The notes under the pieces: model-generated | The model's input: only the letters and a program-made list of their open reading frames with translations | Databases searched by the model: none | Told to the model about the DNA's origin: nothing | Position numbers and translations under genes: made by a program | Shown here: in pieces, positions 5,109 to 56,777 of the stretch | Numbering within the stretch: position 1 is the stretch's first letter | How the letters are laid out: each line of letters starts with the position of its first letter | From: an uncultured bacterium | GTDB taxonomy: Bacteria; Bacillota; Clostridia; Lachnospirales; Lachnospiraceae | NCBI GenBank assembly: GCA_947574055.1 | Contig: CANPIC010000002.1 | Span: 1-64,000, forward strand | Direction: 5' to 3' | Length of the DNA stretch: 64,000 nt

Positions 5109-5945
5109 TTGTTAATCGAGCGAATTATAAACAATAATGTCATCAGTGCGTTGGATGAAGACGGCAAAGAGATTGTCGCCATGGGAAACGGCATCGGCTT
5201 TGGCAAAAAGAAAGGGCAGGAATGTGATGAAAGCCGAATCGACAAGATCTTTCGCATAGAGGATGAGGCAGCGCTGGGACGGTTCAGAGATCTGCTTGCC
5301 AAACTTCCGCTGGAATATATACAGGTATCCAATGACATTATTTCGTACGCGAAGAAAGAACTGAGCGTTTCGCTGAACCAGAATGTGTATATTACATTGA
5401 CCGATCATATCAGTTTTGCACTGGAGCGGTTTCAGAATAATATGAATTTTGCCAACGCCCTGCATAGCGAGATCAGAAGATTCTACCCGGCGGAGTATTC
5501 CGTAGGGATTCATGCTCTGCAGCTGATCGCAGAAAAGACCGGTGTCCTGCTTCCGGAAGATGAGGCTTCCACCATTGCCCTTCATCTGGTTAACGCGGAA
5601 TTGAATCTGCGCGTCAGAGATATATGGGCACTGACGGAGATTATGGGCAGGATTATGGAGCAGATAACGACATTTATGCCGATATTGAAGGCAGAGAGCC
5701 TGGAAATGGACTGGCTTTTGTCGGATCTGAAATTTATTTTGTGCAGAGTATTGACGTTAAAACCTCTGAAAGAAAATGGTGATCCTGCATTACTGGCCTT
5801 TATGCAGGACTGTTGCCCGGAACTGATCAGACTGGTGACAGACATTGCGGTACTTTTGCAGAAAGAGTATAACTGCCATATGACAAAAGAAGAGCAGCTA
5901 TACCTGGTGGTAAGCCTGAAACGAATCAAAGATTTGTATCAATAA
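5109..5945 (+). CDS. licT: LicT/BglG-family transcriptional antiterminator (CAT + PRD domains), TTG start
   Basis: N-terminal INNNVISALDEDGKEIVAMGNGIGFGKKKG CAT domain; PRD sequences including ISFALERFQNNMNFANALHSEIRRFYPAEY. Confidence 0.93.
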   Translation: MLIERIINNNVISALDEDGKEIVAMGNGIGFGKKKGQECDESRIDKIFRIEDEAALGRFRDLLAKLPLEYIQVSNDIISYAKKELSVSLNQNVYITLTDHISFALERFQNNMNFANALHSEIRRFYPAEYSVGIHALQLIAEKTGVLLPEDEASTIALHLVNAELNLRVRDIWALTEIMGRIMEQITTFMPILKAESLEMDWLLSDLKFILCRVLTLKPLKENGDPALLAFMQDCCPELIRLVTDIAVLLQKEYNCHMTKEEQLYLVVSLKRIKDLYQ

Positions 5946-5952
5946 AATCAAA

Positions 5953-6157
5953 TAACAGCATCAGCCCGTAAGGCGCATGGATAAAAATACGGACGCAAAG
6001 CGGACGGAATTTTATCCGGTGAAGGGGCGCATGGAGGGCGGATGCGGAACAAAACAGACTAACAGCATCAGCCCGTAAGGCGCATGGATAAAAATACGGA
6101 CGCAAAGCGGACGGAATTTTATCCGGTGAAGGGGCGCATGGAGGGCGGATGCGGAAC
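5953..6157 (+). repeat. Tandem structured leader repeat upstream of crr (two identical 98 bp copies, period 107)
   Basis: Identical 98 bp at 5953-6050 and 6060-6157; each folds as GCATCAGCCC/GGGCGGATGC outer stem, GCGC/GCGC and GGATAAAA/TTTTATCC inner stems. Confidence 0.9.
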
Positions 6158-6179
6158 TATAAATAGAGAGGAGAGAGAA

Positions 6180-6665
6180 ATGGGATTTTTAAGCGGGGTT
6201 TTCAAGAAAAAAGAAGTGGAGATTGCATCTCCTGCTTCCGGCAGATGCGTCAGCATCAAAGAAGTGCCTGATCCTACCTTCAGTGAAGAGATTCTGGGAA
6301 AAGGCGTGGCAGTCAGGCCGGCGGAAGGAAAGTTTTACGCACCGGCAGACGGCAAGATCAACACACTGTTTCCCACGAAGCATGCAATCGGCATCACCAC
6401 ACCGGAAGGCGTGGAGATACTGCTGCACGTAGGGCTGGATACGGTGAATCTGAAGGGCGAACATTTCACGGCGCATGTGGAGGAAGGCGCATCTGTGAAG
6501 AAAGGGGATCTTTTGCTGGAAGCTGATCTGCAGGCAATACAGGATGCGGGTTATCAGACAATCACACCGGTTCTGGTCTGCAACACCGGAGATTTTGCCG
6601 ATGTGATTCCTGCGGCAGAAGGAGATGTGGCTCCGGGTGACAATATACTTCGAATTAAATTATAG
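6180..6665 (+). CDS. crr: PTS glucose-type IIA component
   Basis: EIASPASGRCVSIKEVPDPTFSEEILGKGVAV, ILLHVGLDTVNLKGEHF active-site region; RBS GAGAGGAGAGAG before ATG 6180. Confidence 0.94.
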   Translation: MGFLSGVFKKKEVEIASPASGRCVSIKEVPDPTFSEEILGKGVAVRPAEGKFYAPADGKINTLFPTKHAIGITTPEGVEILLHVGLDTVNLKGEHFTAHVEEGASVKKGDLLLEADLQAIQDAGYQTITPVLVCNTGDFADVIPAAEGDVAPGDNILRIKL

Positions 6666-6679
6666 GAAGGTCGGATGAT

Positions 6680-8299
6680 ATGGAAATTTTTCATGGAAAA
6701 AGCGTATTACAGGGAATTGCCATCGGCAGTCTGTATGTGATGGAAAAAAAGGAGAGTACCTGGACCAAGCATATGATTGACAATACCGATGAAGAGGTGG
6801 CAAGATTTCAGAAAGCCAGAGAACAGGCGATAGCCGAACTGGATGAACTGTATGAAGAGGCCCTTGACCAGGTCGGTGAAGAAAATGCCATGATCTTCGA
6901 TGTGCATAAGATGATGCTGGAAGATATGGATTATCTGGAAGCCATCGAGAATCTGATCCGGACAGAGAAAGTCAACGCAGAATATGCCGTGACGGTAACC
7001 GGAGAAGAGTTTTCTGCTATGTTTTCCGCTATGGAAGATGACTATATGAGAGCCAGAGCGGCAGATGTGCTGGATATTTCCGGCAGAGTGGTGAGAGTTT
7101 TGGAGGGAAGGGAAGAGCCGGGGCTCCATTCCAGAGAACCGGTGATTATTCTGGCGGATGATCTGACTCCCAGTGAGACCATTGCCATGGATAAGACAAA
7201 GATCCTGGCTTTTGTCACGAAACATGGCTCTGCCAATTCCCATACGGCGATTCTGGCCCGTTCCCTGAATATCCCGTCCCTTGTCAATACAGATGTGGAG
7301 ATTTCCAAGGAATATCACGGGAAAGAAGCTGTTGTGGATGGTGTGACCGGTACATTGTTCATTGAGCCGGATGCACCGACACTGGAAGCAAAACAGAAAG
7401 AACAGGTTCAGATCCGGGAGAAAAACGAGAAACTGAAACTTCTGATCGGACAGGATAATGTTACCAAAGACGGCAGGCGCATCAATCTGTATGCCAACAT
7501 GGGCAATGTGGAAGATGTGGAAAAGGTATTGGCAAACGATGCAGGCGGCATTGGCCTGTTCAGGAGCGAATTCCTTTACCTGGGCCGTGATACGTTCCCC
7601 ACGGAAGAAGAACAGTTTGAAGCGTATAAAGAAGTCGTTTCCCGGATGGGTGGTAAGAAGGTTATTATCCGTACACTGGATATCGGCGCTGACAAAAAAG
7701 CGGATTACTTCGGGCTGGATCCGGAGGAGAATCCCGCGCTGGGGTACAGGGCTATCCGTATCTGCCTGACACAGAGGGAAGTGTTCCGCACCCAGCTGCG
7801 TGCCATCTATAAGGCATCCGCCTTTGGCACTGTGTCCATTATGTTCCCGATGATTATTTCCGTCGAAGAGATCAGAAAGATCAAAGCCTTTGTGGAAGAG
7901 ATCAAGGCGGAACTGAAAGCGGAAGGGGTAGCCTTTGGAGAAGTGGAACTGGGTATTATGATCGAAACCCCTGCAGCAGCCCTTGTAAGCGGTGAACTGG
8001 CCAAAGAAGTGGAGTTCTTCAGCATCGGTACAAACGATCTGACCCAATATACACTTGCTATCGACAGACAGAACCAGAAGCTGGAAGAGTTTTATGATTC
8101 TCACCATCCGGCAGTGCTGAAACTGATCGAAATGACCATCCAGAACGGTCACAAAGAAGGCATCTGGGTAGGGATCTGCGGCGAACTGGCAGCAGATGAT
8201 ACCCTGACCGAAACCTTCCTGAATATGGGACTGGACGAATTGTCCGTGTCTCCCACCTACATTCTTAAACTTCGCGACAAAATCCGTAACATCGGCTGA
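6680..8299 (+). CDS. ptsI: Phosphoenolpyruvate-protein phosphotransferase (Enzyme I)
   Basis: GSANSHTAILARSLNIPSLV phospho-His region, GIGLFRSEFLYLGRDTFPTEEEQF. Confidence 0.97.
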   Translation: MEIFHGKSVLQGIAIGSLYVMEKKESTWTKHMIDNTDEEVARFQKAREQAIAELDELYEEALDQVGEENAMIFDVHKMMLEDMDYLEAIENLIRTEKVNAEYAVTVTGEEFSAMFSAMEDDYMRARAADVLDISGRVVRVLEGREEPGLHSREPVIILADDLTPSETIAMDKTKILAFVTKHGSANSHTAILARSLNIPSLVNTDVEISKEYHGKEAVVDGVTGTLFIEPDAPTLEAKQKEQVQIREKNEKLKLLIGQDNVTKDGRRINLYANMGNVEDVEKVLANDAGGIGLFRSEFLYLGRDTFPTEEEQFEAYKEVVSRMGGKKVIIRTLDIGADKKADYFGLDPEENPALGYRAIRICLTQREVFRTQLRAIYKASAFGTVSIMFPMIISVEEIRKIKAFVEEIKAELKAEGVAFGEVELGIMIETPAAALVSGELAKEVEFFSIGTNDLTQYTLAIDRQNQKLEEFYDSHHPAVLKLIEMTIQNGHKEGIWVGICGELAADDTLTETFLNMGLDELSVSPTYILKLRDKIRNIG

Positions 8300-8331
8300 A
8301 AGTCGCAAAAAAGTAACCCCATAACCAAAAT

Positions 8332-8512
8332 CCGCAAGAGCGTCAGCCCAGGCAGCTGGGAAACAATCCGGTGGAAGAGGCACTGGGAGGACGAGTGCGG
8401 AACTTAAAACAGCAATCGTCAGGACAGTGCCTGGATTGGTTGACAGATGCAGCAGGCAGCTGGGAAACAATCCGGTGGAAGAGGCACTGGGAGGACGAGT
8501 GCGGAACTTAAA
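8332..8512 (+). repeat. Tandem structured leader repeat upstream of ptsH (60 bp identical core, period 104; upstream copy partial)
   Basis: Identical CAGGCAGCTGGG...GCGGAACTTAAA at 8349-8408 and 8453-8512; downstream copy folds GCAATCGTC/GACGAGTGC, AGTGCC/GGCACT, GGATTG/CAATCC. Confidence 0.88.
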
Positions 8513-8531
8513 TAAAAAGGAGAGATTAAAT

Positions 8532-8795
8532 ATGAAAACATTAGAGTATGTCATCACAGACCCGGTAGGACTGCACGCAAGACCGGCAGGTCTTTTTGTA
8601 AAAAAGGCAGCTTCCTATGAGAGCAGCATCACCGTGAAAAATATGGAAAACGGTAAGAGTGCGGATGCCAAACGTATTATGGCTGTTATGTCCCTGGGCG
8701 TAAAACAGGGCAATAAGATCGAACTGACCATGGAAGGCGGCGATGAAGAGACCGCCGAGACAGAATTGATGGCATTTCTGAAAGAAAACCTGTAA
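8532..8795 (+). CDS. ptsH: Phosphocarrier protein HPr
   Basis: VGLHARPAGLFVKKAASYESSITV and a regulatory-Ser region IMAVMSLGVKQG. Confidence 0.97.
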   Translation: MKTLEYVITDPVGLHARPAGLFVKKAASYESSITVKNMENGKSADAKRIMAVMSLGVKQGNKIELTMEGGDEETAETELMAFLKENL

Positions 8796-17199: not shown

Positions 17200-17277
17200 A
17201 GGACAGCCAGGCGCAGAGCGGGAATCATAGCTGGAACTGGAATATAAATATGCGGAGCTGGAATAGGAGTTATTCAT

Positions 17278-28421: not shown

Positions 28422-28552
28422 ATCCATAAGCAGCAAGAGTAAGTCAGATTGTAGCAACATAAAAGTGGACTAAAATGAGCCCGAACGGGAGAGATGGGGA
28501 TCGGCAGCTGAGGAGGATTCCGCCCATGGGCAGGGAAATGAGGGGAAGAAGG

Positions 28553-30382
28553 ATGAAAGATTATCGTTTTCAGGTGAATTTAGGCGGTATGATCGAGATA
28601 TTGTCAGATCATTTATACAGCAGCCCTGATGTCTATATAAGGGAATTGTTGCAAAATGGTGTGGATGCCATAACCGGGCGTATGATTCGGGAAAAAGAGG
28701 AGAAAGAAGCAGGGCGGCAGGCTTCGGAAATTGCGGGCAGGATTGTTTTGGAGATTGAGGAGGGCAGACAGCTTATTTTTTCCGATAACGGCCAGGGGTT
28801 AACGGAGGAGGAGATTCACCAGTTTCTGGCGATTATCGGTGAGTCCTCCAAGCGTAATCCGGCTGACGGGCGGATACGGACAGACTATATCGGACGGTTC
28901 GGGATCGGTCTTTTATCCTGTTTCATGGTGTCAGATCATATCCGGATGCTGACCAGATCTGCCGGTAAAGAGGCACCGGTTCTTGAATGGCAGGGCAGAC
29001 CCGATGGGACATATACAATCCGCCGGATGGAACAGGAGCAGGTCGGCAAAGGGGATATGGCTTTCGGGACGCAGGTCATTCTCTCGGCAAAGCCGGGCAG
29101 GGAAGACTATTTCACGGAGAAGGTTATCCGCAGGCTGCTCACCTACTATGGGATGCTGCTGCCGTTTCCGATTCTTGTCCGTGTGCATGGAAAAGAAGAG
29201 CAGATCAACCCTATTTATCTGCCCTGGGACGGCAGAGAGACGAATAAACAGGAACTGATGCTGTTTGGGCAGATGATGTTTGAAGAGCAGTTTATGGATT
29301 GTGTTCCCCTGCGCAGTGAGTCGGGAAATGTATCCGGCGTGGCCTATATTATCAAATATCCGGTTTTACCATCGGCAAAGGGGAGTCACCGTATCTATCT
29401 GAAAAATATGCTGTTGACGGAAAAGGGTGACAATCTGATCCCTGACTGGGCAGTGTTTACCAAATGCATCATCAATGCCACTGATCTGCGTCCCACGGCT
29501 TCCAGAGAAGGGTTTTATGTGGACGAAGTGCTGGAGAGCGCCAGGGACGCCATTGAAGATGCCTTGATAGACTATATTGCAGGGATCGCGGAGGATGAGA
29601 GAGAAGTCTTTGACCACTTTTTCCATATCCACAAACTCACCCTGATGTCACTTGCGCTGGCCGCACCCAAACTGTTTGGGATACTGGTGGATTACTGTGA
29701 GTTTGAGACAACACGGGGACTGCAGACCGGCTATGATCTGCGGACCTGCGCAGAGCCGCTTGTCTATGCGCCCACGGAAGCAAAATATAAGCAGCTTTCC
29801 CAGCTTTTCTTTGCCCAGGATAAGATGCTGATCAATGTATCCTATGTACATTCGCTGGAACTTCTCATGCGACTGGGACAACTCTACGGTCTGGAAGTAC
29901 ATCCGGTCGATGACTGGAGCGTGGAAGATCTGATGGAAGATCTGACACCGGATGATCAGGACGACAGTTTCGCCTTTCAGAAAGCGGCCAACCGGATCTT
30001 AAAGGCCTATGACTGCCGGGCGGAACTGAAATATTTTTCGCCGTATAATCAGCCCACTTTTTATCTGATGGATGAAAAAATACTGCTCAAGCGCCAGATT
30101 GAGGCTTCCCGTTCGCAGGCGGACTCCATGTTCTTTCAGATGCTGGATGCCTTTACGGCGGAGATTCCCGGCGATACGGCGGCAGTGCTGTATTTTAATT
30201 ACAACAATCCTCTTGTAAAGAAACTGACAGAGAGGGAGGCGGAAGCGGATCTGAAGATACTGGTGGAGATTTTGTATGTACAGGCCCTGCAGATCGGTGG
30301 TTTTACGCTGCATAACAACGAACTGGGAATGTTGAACCGCAATATTCTGACACTGATGGAAAGGGGCCTTTCCGATGAATGA
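28553..30382 (+). CDS. Non-canonical HtpG/Hsp90-family GHKL ATPase
   Basis: MIEILSDHLYSSPDVYIRELLQNGVDAI, FSDNGQGLTEEEI, YIGRFGIGLLSCFMV, and NATDLRPTASREGF in the Hsp90 middle domain. Confidence 0.88.
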   Translation: MKDYRFQVNLGGMIEILSDHLYSSPDVYIRELLQNGVDAITGRMIREKEEKEAGRQASEIAGRIVLEIEEGRQLIFSDNGQGLTEEEIHQFLAIIGESSKRNPADGRIRTDYIGRFGIGLLSCFMVSDHIRMLTRSAGKEAPVLEWQGRPDGTYTIRRMEQEQVGKGDMAFGTQVILSAKPGREDYFTEKVIRRLLTYYGMLLPFPILVRVHGKEEQINPIYLPWDGRETNKQELMLFGQMMFEEQFMDCVPLRSESGNVSGVAYIIKYPVLPSAKGSHRIYLKNMLLTEKGDNLIPDWAVFTKCIINATDLRPTASREGFYVDEVLESARDAIEDALIDYIAGIAEDEREVFDHFFHIHKLTLMSLALAAPKLFGILVDYCEFETTRGLQTGYDLRTCAEPLVYAPTEAKYKQLSQLFFAQDKMLINVSYVHSLELLMRLGQLYGLEVHPVDDWSVEDLMEDLTPDDQDDSFAFQKAANRILKAYDCRAELKYFSPYNQPTFYLMDEKILLKRQIEASRSQADSMFFQMLDAFTAEIPGDTAAVLYFNYNNPLVKKLTEREAEADLKILVEILYVQALQIGGFTLHNNELGMLNRNILTLMERGLSDE

Positions 30383-31499
30383 GAAATATACGGCAGATGG
30401 CTACTTCCCGGAAGAGATAAAAAGAGCCTTCGAGGCGCTGGAACACGGAAACGCCAAAATAGCGGCAATTCGCAGTGCCATAGAAGCGGCAGATGCCAGC
30501 GACGACACGCCTTTCCGGATCTATTTCCGGCTGGAATTGTGCCGGGAATCCTGTTTCTACGGCGACTGTATGGATATGATGGTGATCTTTCCCCAGGTGC
30601 TGGCCATTGCAGACCGGTATCCCGATACACCGGCTACCTGTTATGAGCCCGGTTATCTGGACGCTATGGATCATGTGTTATGGGTGTATAAGTGGATCCT
30701 GGAAGAGTGCTGCAATTTTTACCAGGTTCCCATGGCAGACTGTTTGAAGTTTTTTGAAGACTTTAGACGGCGTAGCCTGGCATATGGATACAATCTGCGC
30801 CCTTACTATTATTATCTGTATCTTTTTTATGAAAAAATCGATCCGGTGAAGTCACGGGAAGCCTTTCATATGTTTGAACAGATTCCCCGGGATGATAACT
30901 GCGACTGCAGGGCTTGTGAACGTAATACCATCATTGATTTCTATCTGCAGCAGGGACAGATGGAACGGGCAAAGGAATTGTCGGCGGAGATTGAGAACTT
31001 TGACCTGACCTGCGGACATGACAAAAAGGAGGCCTGGCTGCGGTTAAAACGCCATTATATGCAGCATTATCTGGGGCGACGGGAATTTGAGGAAGCAGAA
31101 ACCTACTGCCATATTCTGGAGCGCCAGCGGATGAAGGATACGGAATTTCAGAGATGGGATGATTTCCTGTACTGCTATGCCTACCTGAACATGGGAAAAG
31201 CGCTGCGGATTTACAAAGCGCACTGGAAGGAATGGCTGGAAGAGAGACATCCTTCGACCATTTTTTCTGTCAATAGAAATATCACCTGTTTTTTTAAGAA
31301 ATTGCAGCAGGAGAGAAAACAGGCGACGATCAAACTTTCCCTTGATCCGGCCTTTCCTCTGTATGAGGAGAGCGGACAGTACAGCATTGCCAGTCTGTAC
31401 CGGTTTTATTATAAGCGGGCCAGGGAGGTGGCGGAGCGTTTTGATGAAAGAAACGGCTCGCATTATTATTGCAATCAGTTGACAGAAGTATTGTCATAA
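30375..31499 (+). CDS. Uncharacterised protein, paralog A, with Cys cluster
   Basis: Long ORF overlapping the Hsp90-like stop by 8 bp; DTPFRIYFRLELCRESCFYGDCMDMMVIFPQVLAIADRYPDTP; CDCRACERN and CGHDKKEAWLRL. Confidence 0.85.
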   Translation: MNEKYTADGYFPEEIKRAFEALEHGNAKIAAIRSAIEAADASDDTPFRIYFRLELCRESCFYGDCMDMMVIFPQVLAIADRYPDTPATCYEPGYLDAMDHVLWVYKWILEECCNFYQVPMADCLKFFEDFRRRSLAYGYNLRPYYYYLYLFYEKIDPVKSREAFHMFEQIPRDDNCDCRACERNTIIDFYLQQGQMERAKELSAEIENFDLTCGHDKKEAWLRLKRHYMQHYLGRREFEEAETYCHILERQRMKDTEFQRWDDFLYCYAYLNMGKALRIYKAHWKEWLEERHPSTIFSVNRNITCFFKKLQQERKQATIKLSLDPAFPLYEESGQYSIASLYRFYYKRAREVAERFDERNGSHYYCNQLTEVLS

Positions 31500-31583
31500 A
31501 CAGGCAGGGTGCTTTGTATCTGCAGGAGGCTTTTCCGTACGGAGTACCGGCCGGGCGTATTTGAGAAAGGAGCCGGATTAACC

Positions 31584-32726
31584 ATGAAAGACCAACAGGG
31601 AGAGCGTCTTTACGAACCGGAAAAACTCAAACAGCTTTGTGATCGTGCAGAGCACGGGATCGCCAGAAGGGAAGCGCTTCGTGAGGCCATTGCCCAGGCG
31701 GATGCCCACAACGACACTCCCTTTCGCATCTATTTTCGACTGGAACTGTGTCAGGAGTCCAATTTTTATGGGGACAGTTTGGATATGATGGTGATTTTTC
31801 CCGAGGCGCTGGCCATCGCCGACCGTTATCCGGATACGCCCTGTACGAGATATAATAACAGGATTTTTCAAAACTGTATGGGCCATATTTTATGGGTTTA
31901 TAAATGGATTCTGAGCTGCTGTGATGAATTTTATCAGATTCCGATGGCGGTCTGTGAGAAATTTTTTGAGGATTTCAAACGGCGCAGTCTGGCTTACGGA
32001 TTCAATCTGCGCGCCTATTATCTGTACCGTTATTATTTTTATAATTCCATGGATCTGGAAGAGGAGGCGAGAGCAGCATTTTATGCGTATGAAAGTCTGC
32101 CCAGGGACAGCAACTGCGACTGCAAAGCCTGTGAGCGTAACGTCAGTGTCAATTTCTACCTGGATATGGATGATTGGGAAAAGGCGAAAGAACTGGCGGC
32201 GGATATCGAGAATCATTCTCTTCGCTGCGGACATGACCGGATGGCGGCCTGGCTGCGCCTCCAGCGCCATTATATGAATTATTATCTGAGCTCGCAGCGG
32301 CGCAATTTTGCTGAAGGGGAGAAATACTGCAAACTGATCGAGCGCCATATGATCAGCGCCATCGAGTATCAGGAATGGGACAGCTTCGTATACTGCTATG
32401 CGCATACGAATCTAGGCAAAGCTCTGCAAATATATAAGAATCACTGGAAAGACTGGGAAAAGGAACGCAATCCCTCCAGCGAATACTATAGCTGTAAAAA
32501 TATCATGCGTTTTTTTAAGAAGCTGGGTGAAGTGAGGAAAAGTAAGACCGTGAAATTGCAGATGGAGCCTTCTTTTCCTCTGTATCAGAAAAATGGTCAG
32601 TATGAAATCAACGGCCTGTACCAGTATTATTATAACAGAGCCAGAAAGGTTGCGGAACTTTTTGATGCCCGCAATGGCACGGATTGCTTCTGTCACTGGC
32701 TGGAAAGAGCCGCGGAGGAAGGGTGA
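31584..32726 (+). CDS. Uncharacterised protein, paralog B, with Cys cluster
   Basis: Collinear with paralog A: DTPFRIYFRLELCQESNFYGDSLDMMVIFPEALAIADRYPDTP; CDCKACERN and CGHDRMAAWLRL. Confidence 0.85.
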   Translation: MKDQQGERLYEPEKLKQLCDRAEHGIARREALREAIAQADAHNDTPFRIYFRLELCQESNFYGDSLDMMVIFPEALAIADRYPDTPCTRYNNRIFQNCMGHILWVYKWILSCCDEFYQIPMAVCEKFFEDFKRRSLAYGFNLRAYYLYRYYFYNSMDLEEEARAAFYAYESLPRDSNCDCKACERNVSVNFYLDMDDWEKAKELAADIENHSLRCGHDRMAAWLRLQRHYMNYYLSSQRRNFAEGEKYCKLIERHMISAIEYQEWDSFVYCYAHTNLGKALQIYKNHWKDWEKERNPSSEYYSCKNIMRFFKKLGEVRKSKTVKLQMEPSFPLYQKNGQYEINGLYQYYYNRARKVAELFDARNGTDCFCHWLERAAEEG

Positions 32727-32860: not shown

Positions 32861-32900
32861 AACAGCATCCTTTCTATCTTCGGGAAGAAAGATGCGGAAC
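32861..32900 (+). promoter_or_regulatory. Leader hairpin of the Fe-ADH gene, minimal member of the GCGGAAC leader family
   Basis: AACAGCATC-C-TTTCT-AT-cUUCGg-GA-AGAAA-GATGCGGAAC. Confidence 0.8.
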
Positions 32901-32925
32901 TTATAAGCAGGAGGTATACATAAAT

Positions 32926-55435: not shown

Positions 55436-55529
55436 CAGAAACATATAAAACGAAACGCTAGCAACCCGCAAAGCGCCCGAACGGGACACGGACCGGGGCT
55501 GTTGCGCAACTGGAATAGGAGCCAAAAAC

Positions 55530-56777
55530 ATGACAAATCTGGATGAAATGGGAAAAAAGGCGGTCACAGCCAAATACATAGTACAGACGCTGTCCGCGGA
55601 AGAAAAAAATGCGGCACTGTCTGCGGCGGCAGACGGACTTTTGGCAGATACGGCGGCAATTCTGGCCGCCAACGAAAAAGACATGCAGGCCGGTCGGGAG
55701 AACGGTATGCATGAGGGACTGCTGGACCGGCTGAAGCTGGACGGGGCCAGGATCGAAGCGATGGCCCTGGGGCTGCGGCAGGTTGCGGACCTGCCCGATC
55801 CGGTGGGTAAGGTTCTGGAAGCATGGGAGCGTCCAAACGGGCTGCGCCTGCAAAAAGTGTCTGTTCCGCTGGGGGTGATCGGTATCATCTATGAATCCCG
55901 TCCCAATGTAACAGCGGATGCCTTTGCACTTTGTTTTAAGGCAGGAAATGCGGCGATCCTCAAAGGGGGAAGCGATGCGATTCATTCCAATATGGCTATC
56001 GCAGCTTCTTTGCGCAAATCACTGAAAAAAAACGGGCTGCCGGAAGATGCGGTACAGCTGATAGAAGACACGGACCGGGAGACAACGGCCGCCTTTATGA
56101 AATGCAGGGAATATATAGATGTTCTGATCCCGCGTGGGAGCGCCGGGCTGATCCGTGCCACAGTGGAAAACAGTACCATCCCCATCATCGAAACGGGAAC
56201 CGGCAACTGCCATATTTTTATTGATGAAACTGCCGATCTGACTGATGCAGTCAATATTGTGGTCAACGCCAAAACCCAGCGTATCGGCGTATGCAATGCC
56301 TGTGAGTCGCTGGTAATCCATGAAAAGATAGCGGCTGCCTTCCTGCCGGCATTAAAGGAAGGCCTGGCACGGGTACATGAAGTGGAAATCCGGGGAGACC
56401 GGCAGGTGTGCCAGATCCTCCCGGAAGTAAAACATGCCGCAGAGGAGGATTATGGTACAGAGTATCTGGACTATATTCTGTCCGCGGTGACTGTAAAAAA
56501 TATAGAAGAAGCGATTGCCCATATCAATCGCTACAGCACCCATCATTCCGATGCCATCCTGACACAGGATAACAGCCATGCGCAGCGGTTTACACAGGCC
56601 ATTGATTCCGCCTGCGTCTATGTCAATGCCTCCACCCGCTTTACGGACGGTTTTGAGTTTGGGTTTGGTGCGGAAATCGGCATCAGTACACAGAAACTGC
56701 ATGCAAGAGGTCCGATGGGGCTGCCCCAGCTGACCACCTATAAATATATCGTGGAGGGAAACGGACAGGTGAGATAA
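55530..56777 (+). CDS. proA: Gamma-glutamyl phosphate reductase
   Basis: VPLGVIGIIYESRPNVTADAFALCFKAGNAAILKGG; QRIGVCNACESLVIH. Confidence 0.97.
   Translation: MTNLDEMGKKAVTAKYIVQTLSAEEKNAALSAAADGLLADTAAILAANEKDMQAGRENGMHEGLLDRLKLDGARIEAMALGLRQVADLPDPVGKVLEAWERPNGLRLQKVSVPLGVIGIIYESRPNVTADAFALCFKAGNAAILKGGSDAIHSNMAIAASLRKSLKKNGLPEDAVQLIEDTDRETTAAFMKCREYIDVLIPRGSAGLIRATVENSTIPIIETGTGNCHIFIDETADLTDAVNIVVNAKTQRIGVCNACESLVIHEKIAAAFLPALKEGLARVHEVEIRGDRQVCQILPEVKHAAEEDYGTEYLDYILSAVTVKNIEEAIAHINRYSTHHSDAILTQDNSHAQRFTQAIDSACVYVNASTRFTDGFEFGFGAEIGISTQKLHARGPMGLPQLTTYKYIVEGNGQVR

Follow-up and report, generated by a model that had tools for sequence, protein, structure and literature searches.

Pneumococcal BOX repeats, with RUP and SPRITE, are high-copy short repeats with predicted RNA folds, BOX having modular tandem boxB copies, and past proliferation and effects on co-transcribed genes have been proposed for them; some BOX repeats sit between convergent genes (PMC3049150). 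In surveys of bacterial noncoding RNAs, mobile or repeat candidates have been recognized by their inconsistent orientation and their links to transposases (PMC11109978). REP/BIME palindromes form many imperfect hairpins per genome in 3' or intergenic positions, and 5' mRNA stabilizer hairpins and cis-regulatory leader RNAs adjoin the ribosome-binding site of single genes or regulons. The RNA described here is high-copy and interspersed like BOX, RUP, and SPRITE, forms tandem copies like the boxB modules of BOX, occurs as many tandem or clustered imperfect hairpins like REP/BIME, is a structured motif with multiple copies per genome like the survey candidates (PMC11109978), and shares with the stabilizers and leader RNAs a 5'-UTR position adjoining the ribosome-binding site. 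It differs from BOX, with its varied gene contexts, in being sense-only and fixed to the Shine-Dalgarno (SD) sequence (the sequences were compared via Rfam only), from REP/BIME in lying in the 5' UTR, from the survey candidates (PMC11109978) in being always sense, and from the stabilizers and leader RNAs in preceding dozens of unrelated genes. The pneumococcal BOX repeats are its nearest analog in behavior.

No match to Rfam 15 at the gathering threshold was obtained over the whole 64,000-nt stretch of DNA that was analyzed (the window), and a permissive Rfam search (E up to 1), which covered positions 5800-8700 with the crr and ptsH units and eight loci taken from further arrays and genomes, placed nothing over a unit. 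No published description was found in the open-access literature searched. The family is apparently undescribed and would be of the interspersed-repeat or leader-RNA kind, with its function pending. A separate observation concerns locus L246 (473-641) of the Lachnospiraceae genome G423, which has a full-length match to Rfam V_AS7 (Vibrio RNA AS7) that is below threshold but strong (71 bits; gathering 90).

Results

A shortened copy of a larger RNA precedes the alcohol dehydrogenase gene

The hairpin AACAGCATCCTTTCTATCTTCGGGAAGAAAGATGCGGAACTTATAA lies exactly as a sequence-only reading of this DNA had quoted it, at positions 32861-32905, and the pattern of its flanking arms occurs once in the window versus 0 expected from shuffles. 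The inner stem is capped by UUCG (loop 32879-32882), an A32864.G32896 mismatch falls within the basal helix, and the hairpin also contains one bulged C and one A.A mismatch. Against the covariance model of the family (R1) it gave an end-to-end match of 22.7 bits with 62 inner positions deleted (E-value of 0.0077 per 64 kb). Its own fold barely beats shuffles (z of -1.5); the significance of the hairpin comes from this family match. The basal helix, the A.G mismatch, and the 3' GGAACU of the R1 family are all present; helices P3-P5 of the inner domain are absent, with the short UUCG stem in their place, and for this reason we term the unit a shortened derivative. Judged from the match to the model, the hairpin is an internally shortened copy of a structured RNA of ~97 nt and no self-contained minimal motif.

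The crr leader (AACAGCATC..GATGCGGAACTATAA) and the ptsH leader (AACAGCAATC..GAGTGCGGAACTTAAA), which end at 6158 and 8508, are as the sequence-only reading described them, and R1 matches at these two and at the ADH leader, in agreement with the proposal that the three form one family. In the crr leader, two full units follow each other in tandem at a distance of 107 nt; in that of ptsH, a truncated unit and a full one are 104 nt apart. The folds of the full units lie far beyond those of shuffles (z values in Table 1), with scores of 83-92 bits against R1. The region directly upstream of the ADH gene (28475-32726) holds an HSP90/HATPase-like ORF (635 aa) with weak similarity to TmtA defense models. 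Behind it come two ORFs, 30375-31499 and 31509-32726, that are paralogs with a 204-nt stretch in common (74%) and no Pfam family above cut-off in either; the three possibly make up an undescribed operon.

Table 1. Units of the RNA family and the genes that follow them in the window.
Feature	Coordinates	Strand	Remarks
Full unit 1 before crr	5956..6051	+	87.8 bits; near-identical 107-nt direct repeat
Full unit 2 before crr	6063..6158	+	91.6 bits; fold z -6.7
crr-like gene, 161 aa, ATG 6180	6180..6665	+	Named from the sequence-only reading and the PTS neighborhood
Truncated unit 1 before ptsH	8338..8404	+	21 bits; 60-nt direct repeat
Full unit 2 before ptsH	8410..8508	+	83.3 bits; fold z -5.7
ptsH (HPr, 87 aa)	8532..8795	+	
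Helix-less remnant GCTGGAACTGGAATATAAATATGCGGAGCTGGAATAGGAG	17226..17271	+	Directly upstream of a small ORF, ATG 17278
Short family unit with an internal deletion, before the ADH gene	32863..32901	+	Basal helix CAGCA/TGCGG, 3' GGAACT
Shine-Dalgarno AGGAGG of the ADH gene	32909..32914	+	7 nt past unit end
Iron-containing alcohol dehydrogenase (ADH), 405 aa	32926..34143	+	
Degenerate short unit AGCAAC..GTTGCGCAACTGGAATAGGAG	55466..55521	+	Weak, 11.6 bits; precedes an aldehyde-dehydrogenase-family ORF starting at 55530

The fold is maintained across the family

When the places with GCGGAACT followed by an SD and an ATG were read out, the unit proved to have a near-constant length of ~97 nt. Its short consensus is AAAA-CAGCA...UGCGGAACU-nnAAnAGGAGG; the full consensus runs AAAA-CAGCA-ncnGc-CCGGACAG-GGCC-CGGAAnGATTT-ACGGACGC-GAAA-GCGGCCGG-AAATcnTTCCGG-anAAg-GGGCnCTG-GGAGGGca-GATGCGGAACT, followed by nnAA and the SD. 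A single long stem with interruptions makes up the fold; its 3' loop is asymmetric and its cap often GNRA-like, the first internal loop has GGA on each side, and the three bases ahead of CAGC are A in ~90% of the copies. The A.G mismatch noticed earlier in the CAGCA/TGCGG helix is real and is invariant near the base of the stem (31/31 aligned full units).

For alignment A1, 31 units were aligned by sequence alone. Its consensus fold has 27 pairs, 23 of which show changes on both sides; once basal and P2 pairs had been added, 87.0% of the cells were paired versus 32-42% with the partners slid, and the covariation score was 0.466 versus 0.07-0.12. Alignment A2 (138 distinct units from 9 genomes), which was fitted to the model and hence leans towards it, gave 90.5% paired cells versus 34-49% and a covariation score of 0.586 versus 0.05-0.12. 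Among copies of the same array, change per site was ~2.4% in paired columns versus 5.7% in unpaired columns, which fits selection on the structure; this signal is modest within arrays, since pair-breaking single changes (20) exceed those that keep pairing (15). One unit of G022 (L195, 456-574) is 119 nt long and carries an extra insertion, which suggests that the fold tolerates inserts.

The strict form of the sequence-only reading, in which function resides in the basal helix and GGAACU and the inner domain is dispensable filler, can be judged from these alignments and from the short copies. Conservation in the element is indeed highest in the basal helix with its A.G mismatch and in the unpaired GGAACU next to the SD, the ends being the most conserved columns, and several short copies retain both. 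A conserved unit confined to these parts did not hold up: most copies have a full inner domain of near-constant length whose helices covary strongly, and helix-less remnants also persist beside the SD. In a site census, a full unit was present at 23 of 28 sites in the source genome and at 12 of 28 in G022, and the remaining sites ran from perfect short hairpins to bare GCGGAACTnnAATAGGAGG without a helix. Short copies adjoin full copies in the same arrays (L003, L010, L013, L015, and L026). This spectrum looks like a decay series, in which short copies such as that of the ADH leader would be internal-deletion derivatives, possibly with partial activity. With the short forms read in this way, the inner domain cannot securely be called dispensable, and we consider the strict form quite unlikely.

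Units are sense-only and fixed to the SD

The source genome (2.85 Mb in 84 contigs; G000) has the CAGCA..TGCGGAAC pattern at 27 places, about a dozen of which, on inspection, are in gene leaders. The GCGGAACT + SD + ATG pattern gave 29 matches there and 30 in G022, versus 0 for the reversed pattern in each genome, and at most 2 in any of the remaining 114 genomes. R1 found 78 matches in the source genome. On the basis of a profile search of loci retrieved from this genome, 75 distinct units were censused for placement, and every one (75/75) precedes another unit or a same-strand SD and start codon, or reaches a contig end; four rows scored "other" precede, on inspection, a further degenerate unit or repeat such a row. 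No antisense or out-of-place copy occurred among the 75, and the varied orientation and gene context expected of a BOX-type repeat or MITE was not seen. The distance from the last T of the unit to the SD core was 5-6 nt in 68 of 92 scored places and 7 nt for the ADH copy. The proposed check of placement against start codons was thereby run with both the pattern and the unit census, and the element is not randomly distributed relative to them.

Units within one array have a mean identity of 0.89, and the array linkers match the sequence separating the last unit from the SD. We conclude from these two features that the arrays arose by local tandem duplication. Eight contigs of the source genome (C1, C5, C18, C21, C23, C36, C50, and C56) end inside or beside unit arrays. 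Array lengths are lower bounds because contigs stop within arrays; the real arrays may be longer than assembled, and the repeat may fragment assemblies.

The distribution is patchy and the copies appear to be gains

Among 116 relatives, carriers were limited to the source genome, G001 (same genus), and G022 (another genus). The family sample had 8 carriers in 397 genomes and the class sample (391 genomes) only the source genome, counts from large scans with stricter filters that possibly missed few-copy or weak-copy carriers; no carrier was found outside the family Lachnospiraceae. A deeper search gave R1 match numbers of 140 for G333, 97 for G022, 78 for the source genome, 66 for G236, and 41 for G324, the largest of which may be low because 150 candidates were scored per genome. 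The low-copy carriers had 12 (G225), 8 (G001), 2 (G298), and 2 (G423) matches, and each of five congeners had 0 in the deeper search. The element is absent from the orthologous crr, ptsH, and ADH leaders of the congeners, and the leader of the ADH ortholog in G001, itself a carrier, is empty next to a gene that is 94% identical. Because these orthologous leaders are empty, the copies were probably gained in the source lineage, and we infer gain here rather than loss elsewhere. At crr and ptsH, the sequence around the SD is similar to that of the empty orthologs, so that the unit was seemingly placed upstream of a pre-existing SD. The two ends of a unit look like inverted repeats, and GGAACTnnAA direct repeats often flank the units; divergence of the empty sites was too great for a target-site duplication to be delimited.

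These features make a selfish interspersed repeat a serious rival and a possible reading of the family. Such a small mobile element, of DNA or of RNA copied back, would insert beside the purine-rich SD in a fixed orientation, its structure being kept for mobilization with little or no host function and its short forms being dead copies. The patchy, high-copy distribution, the genome-specific subfamilies (between-locus identities of 0.70-0.85 within G022, G236, G333, and G001 versus 0.56 between genomes), the empty orthologous sites in congeners, the apparent placement ahead of existing SDs at crr and ptsH, and the decay spectrum of the copies all speak for it, and the patchy spread together with the helix-less remnants also fits a repeat without host function. 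Against it, none of the 75 censused units is antisense or out of place, unlike BOX (PMC3049150), and the copies of the source genome are as different from one another (0.574) as from those of other genomes (0.563), yet their pairing is kept. The identity pattern points to recent bursts in some lineages and older, diversified copies in others. Mobilization of the REP/RAYT type was rejected, as the Y1 transposase is missing from 6 of 9 carriers (source genome, G001, G022, G298, G333, and G423), and a mobilizing enzyme was not found. A phage origin was likewise discarded: in 2.9 million viral contigs the 3' end was matched exactly only once, within a phage ORF that lacks the RNA, and these contigs gave no full unit pattern and no ADH relatives.

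The downstream genes have no common theme

By Pfam, the products encoded downstream of units in the source genome include TerD, argininosuccinate lyase, DNA primase, an RnfD-type subunit, a protein kinase, a sugar kinase, BacA/UppP, glycerol-3-phosphate dehydrogenase, IF-1, a Clp ATPase, GreA, YebC, ketol-acid reductoisomerase, an IlvD-type dehydratase, phosphofructokinase, and binding proteins, and no common theme or pathway is apparent among them. The link to abundant proteins that had been drawn from HPr and ADH is weak, the downstream genes being very mixed. Some unit-bearing genes recur: argH has a unit in both the source genome and G022, and dnaG, uppP, and a DUF4349 lipoprotein gene have units in both the source genome and G236. 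This sharing looks to exceed chance. G022 likewise has a glycerol-3-phosphate dehydrogenase start. Ancestral retention was rejected, since the units at argH, dnaG, uppP, gpsA, and the DUF4349 lipoprotein gene do not exceed background in their similarity. This suggests that they were gained independently, which also speaks for a selfish repeat.

Some riboswitches occur in tandem, and the structure, the conserved internal-loop nucleotides, the tandem arrangement, and the 5'-UTR position would suit a riboswitch-like aptamer for a general signal. We hold this to be very improbable given the lack of a consistent gene association or common pathway downstream, the patchy distribution within one genus, the absence of any apparent terminator or SD-sequestering platform, and the absence of an Rfam match even at the permissive threshold. 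We also weighed whether control of translation by CsrA might act through the many GGA motifs. GGA triplets are numerous, some lie in loops and one just ahead of the SD, and 8 of 9 carriers have a csrA gene. CsrA does not track the element, since 10 of 13 tested non-carriers also have it above cut-off, and GGA-rich internal loops are not the usual CsrA sites, which are in apical loops; this reading is extremely unlikely.

Insulation or occlusion of the SD was considered and rejected: the predicted accessibility of the SD did not differ between real units (0.596) and shuffled units (0.586), so that no folding-based effect on it is visible.

Discussion

The ADH hairpin leads to an RNA family with a real structure that has proliferated, in the sense orientation only, in 5' UTRs of some gut bacteria. 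We favor, with a probability of roughly one half, a cis-acting RNA that would influence translation initiation and/or the stability of the mRNA 5' end through a bound factor, because the structure is maintained and the placement with respect to the SD is tight. A protein site or stabilizer rather than a ligand aptamer, as the sequence-only reading had it, is plausible. The lack of a theme among the downstream genes and the equal predicted SD accessibility of real and shuffled units count against the cis-acting RNA.

The family has multiplied in a few Lachnospiraceae, its copies lying immediately upstream of an existing SD, always in the sense orientation, and then duplicating in tandem. In the mechanism that we propose, a putative factor, either a protein or a component of the ribosome, would recognize the basal helix with its A.G pair and the single-stranded GGAACU by the SD, and would set translation initiation and/or protect the 5' end of the mRNA, an effect on expression that tandem copies could tune. 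That the units act on expression, and that a trans factor exists, is what we infer from placement and covariation. In its fullest form the proposal is of a new proliferating RNA module that is copied precisely beside SDs in 5' UTRs and then duplicated in tandem. Unrelated genes, from dozens to more than 100 per genome, would thereby come under a single putative trans-acting factor for translation or stability, and a genome-wide regulon would be built anew time after time; we offer this form as a tentative and rather doubtful extension.

The family, with strong covariation and up to 140 model matches in one genome, is apparently undescribed, and what sets it apart from known bacterial repeats is that it lies in sense at a fixed 5-6 nt from the SD core. 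It raises the question of whether selfish elements have come to target ribosome-binding sites or whether genes are wired, by a fast-evolving route, into a single regulon at the post-transcriptional level. Whichever answer holds, it would shed light on the evolution of bacterial 5' UTRs.
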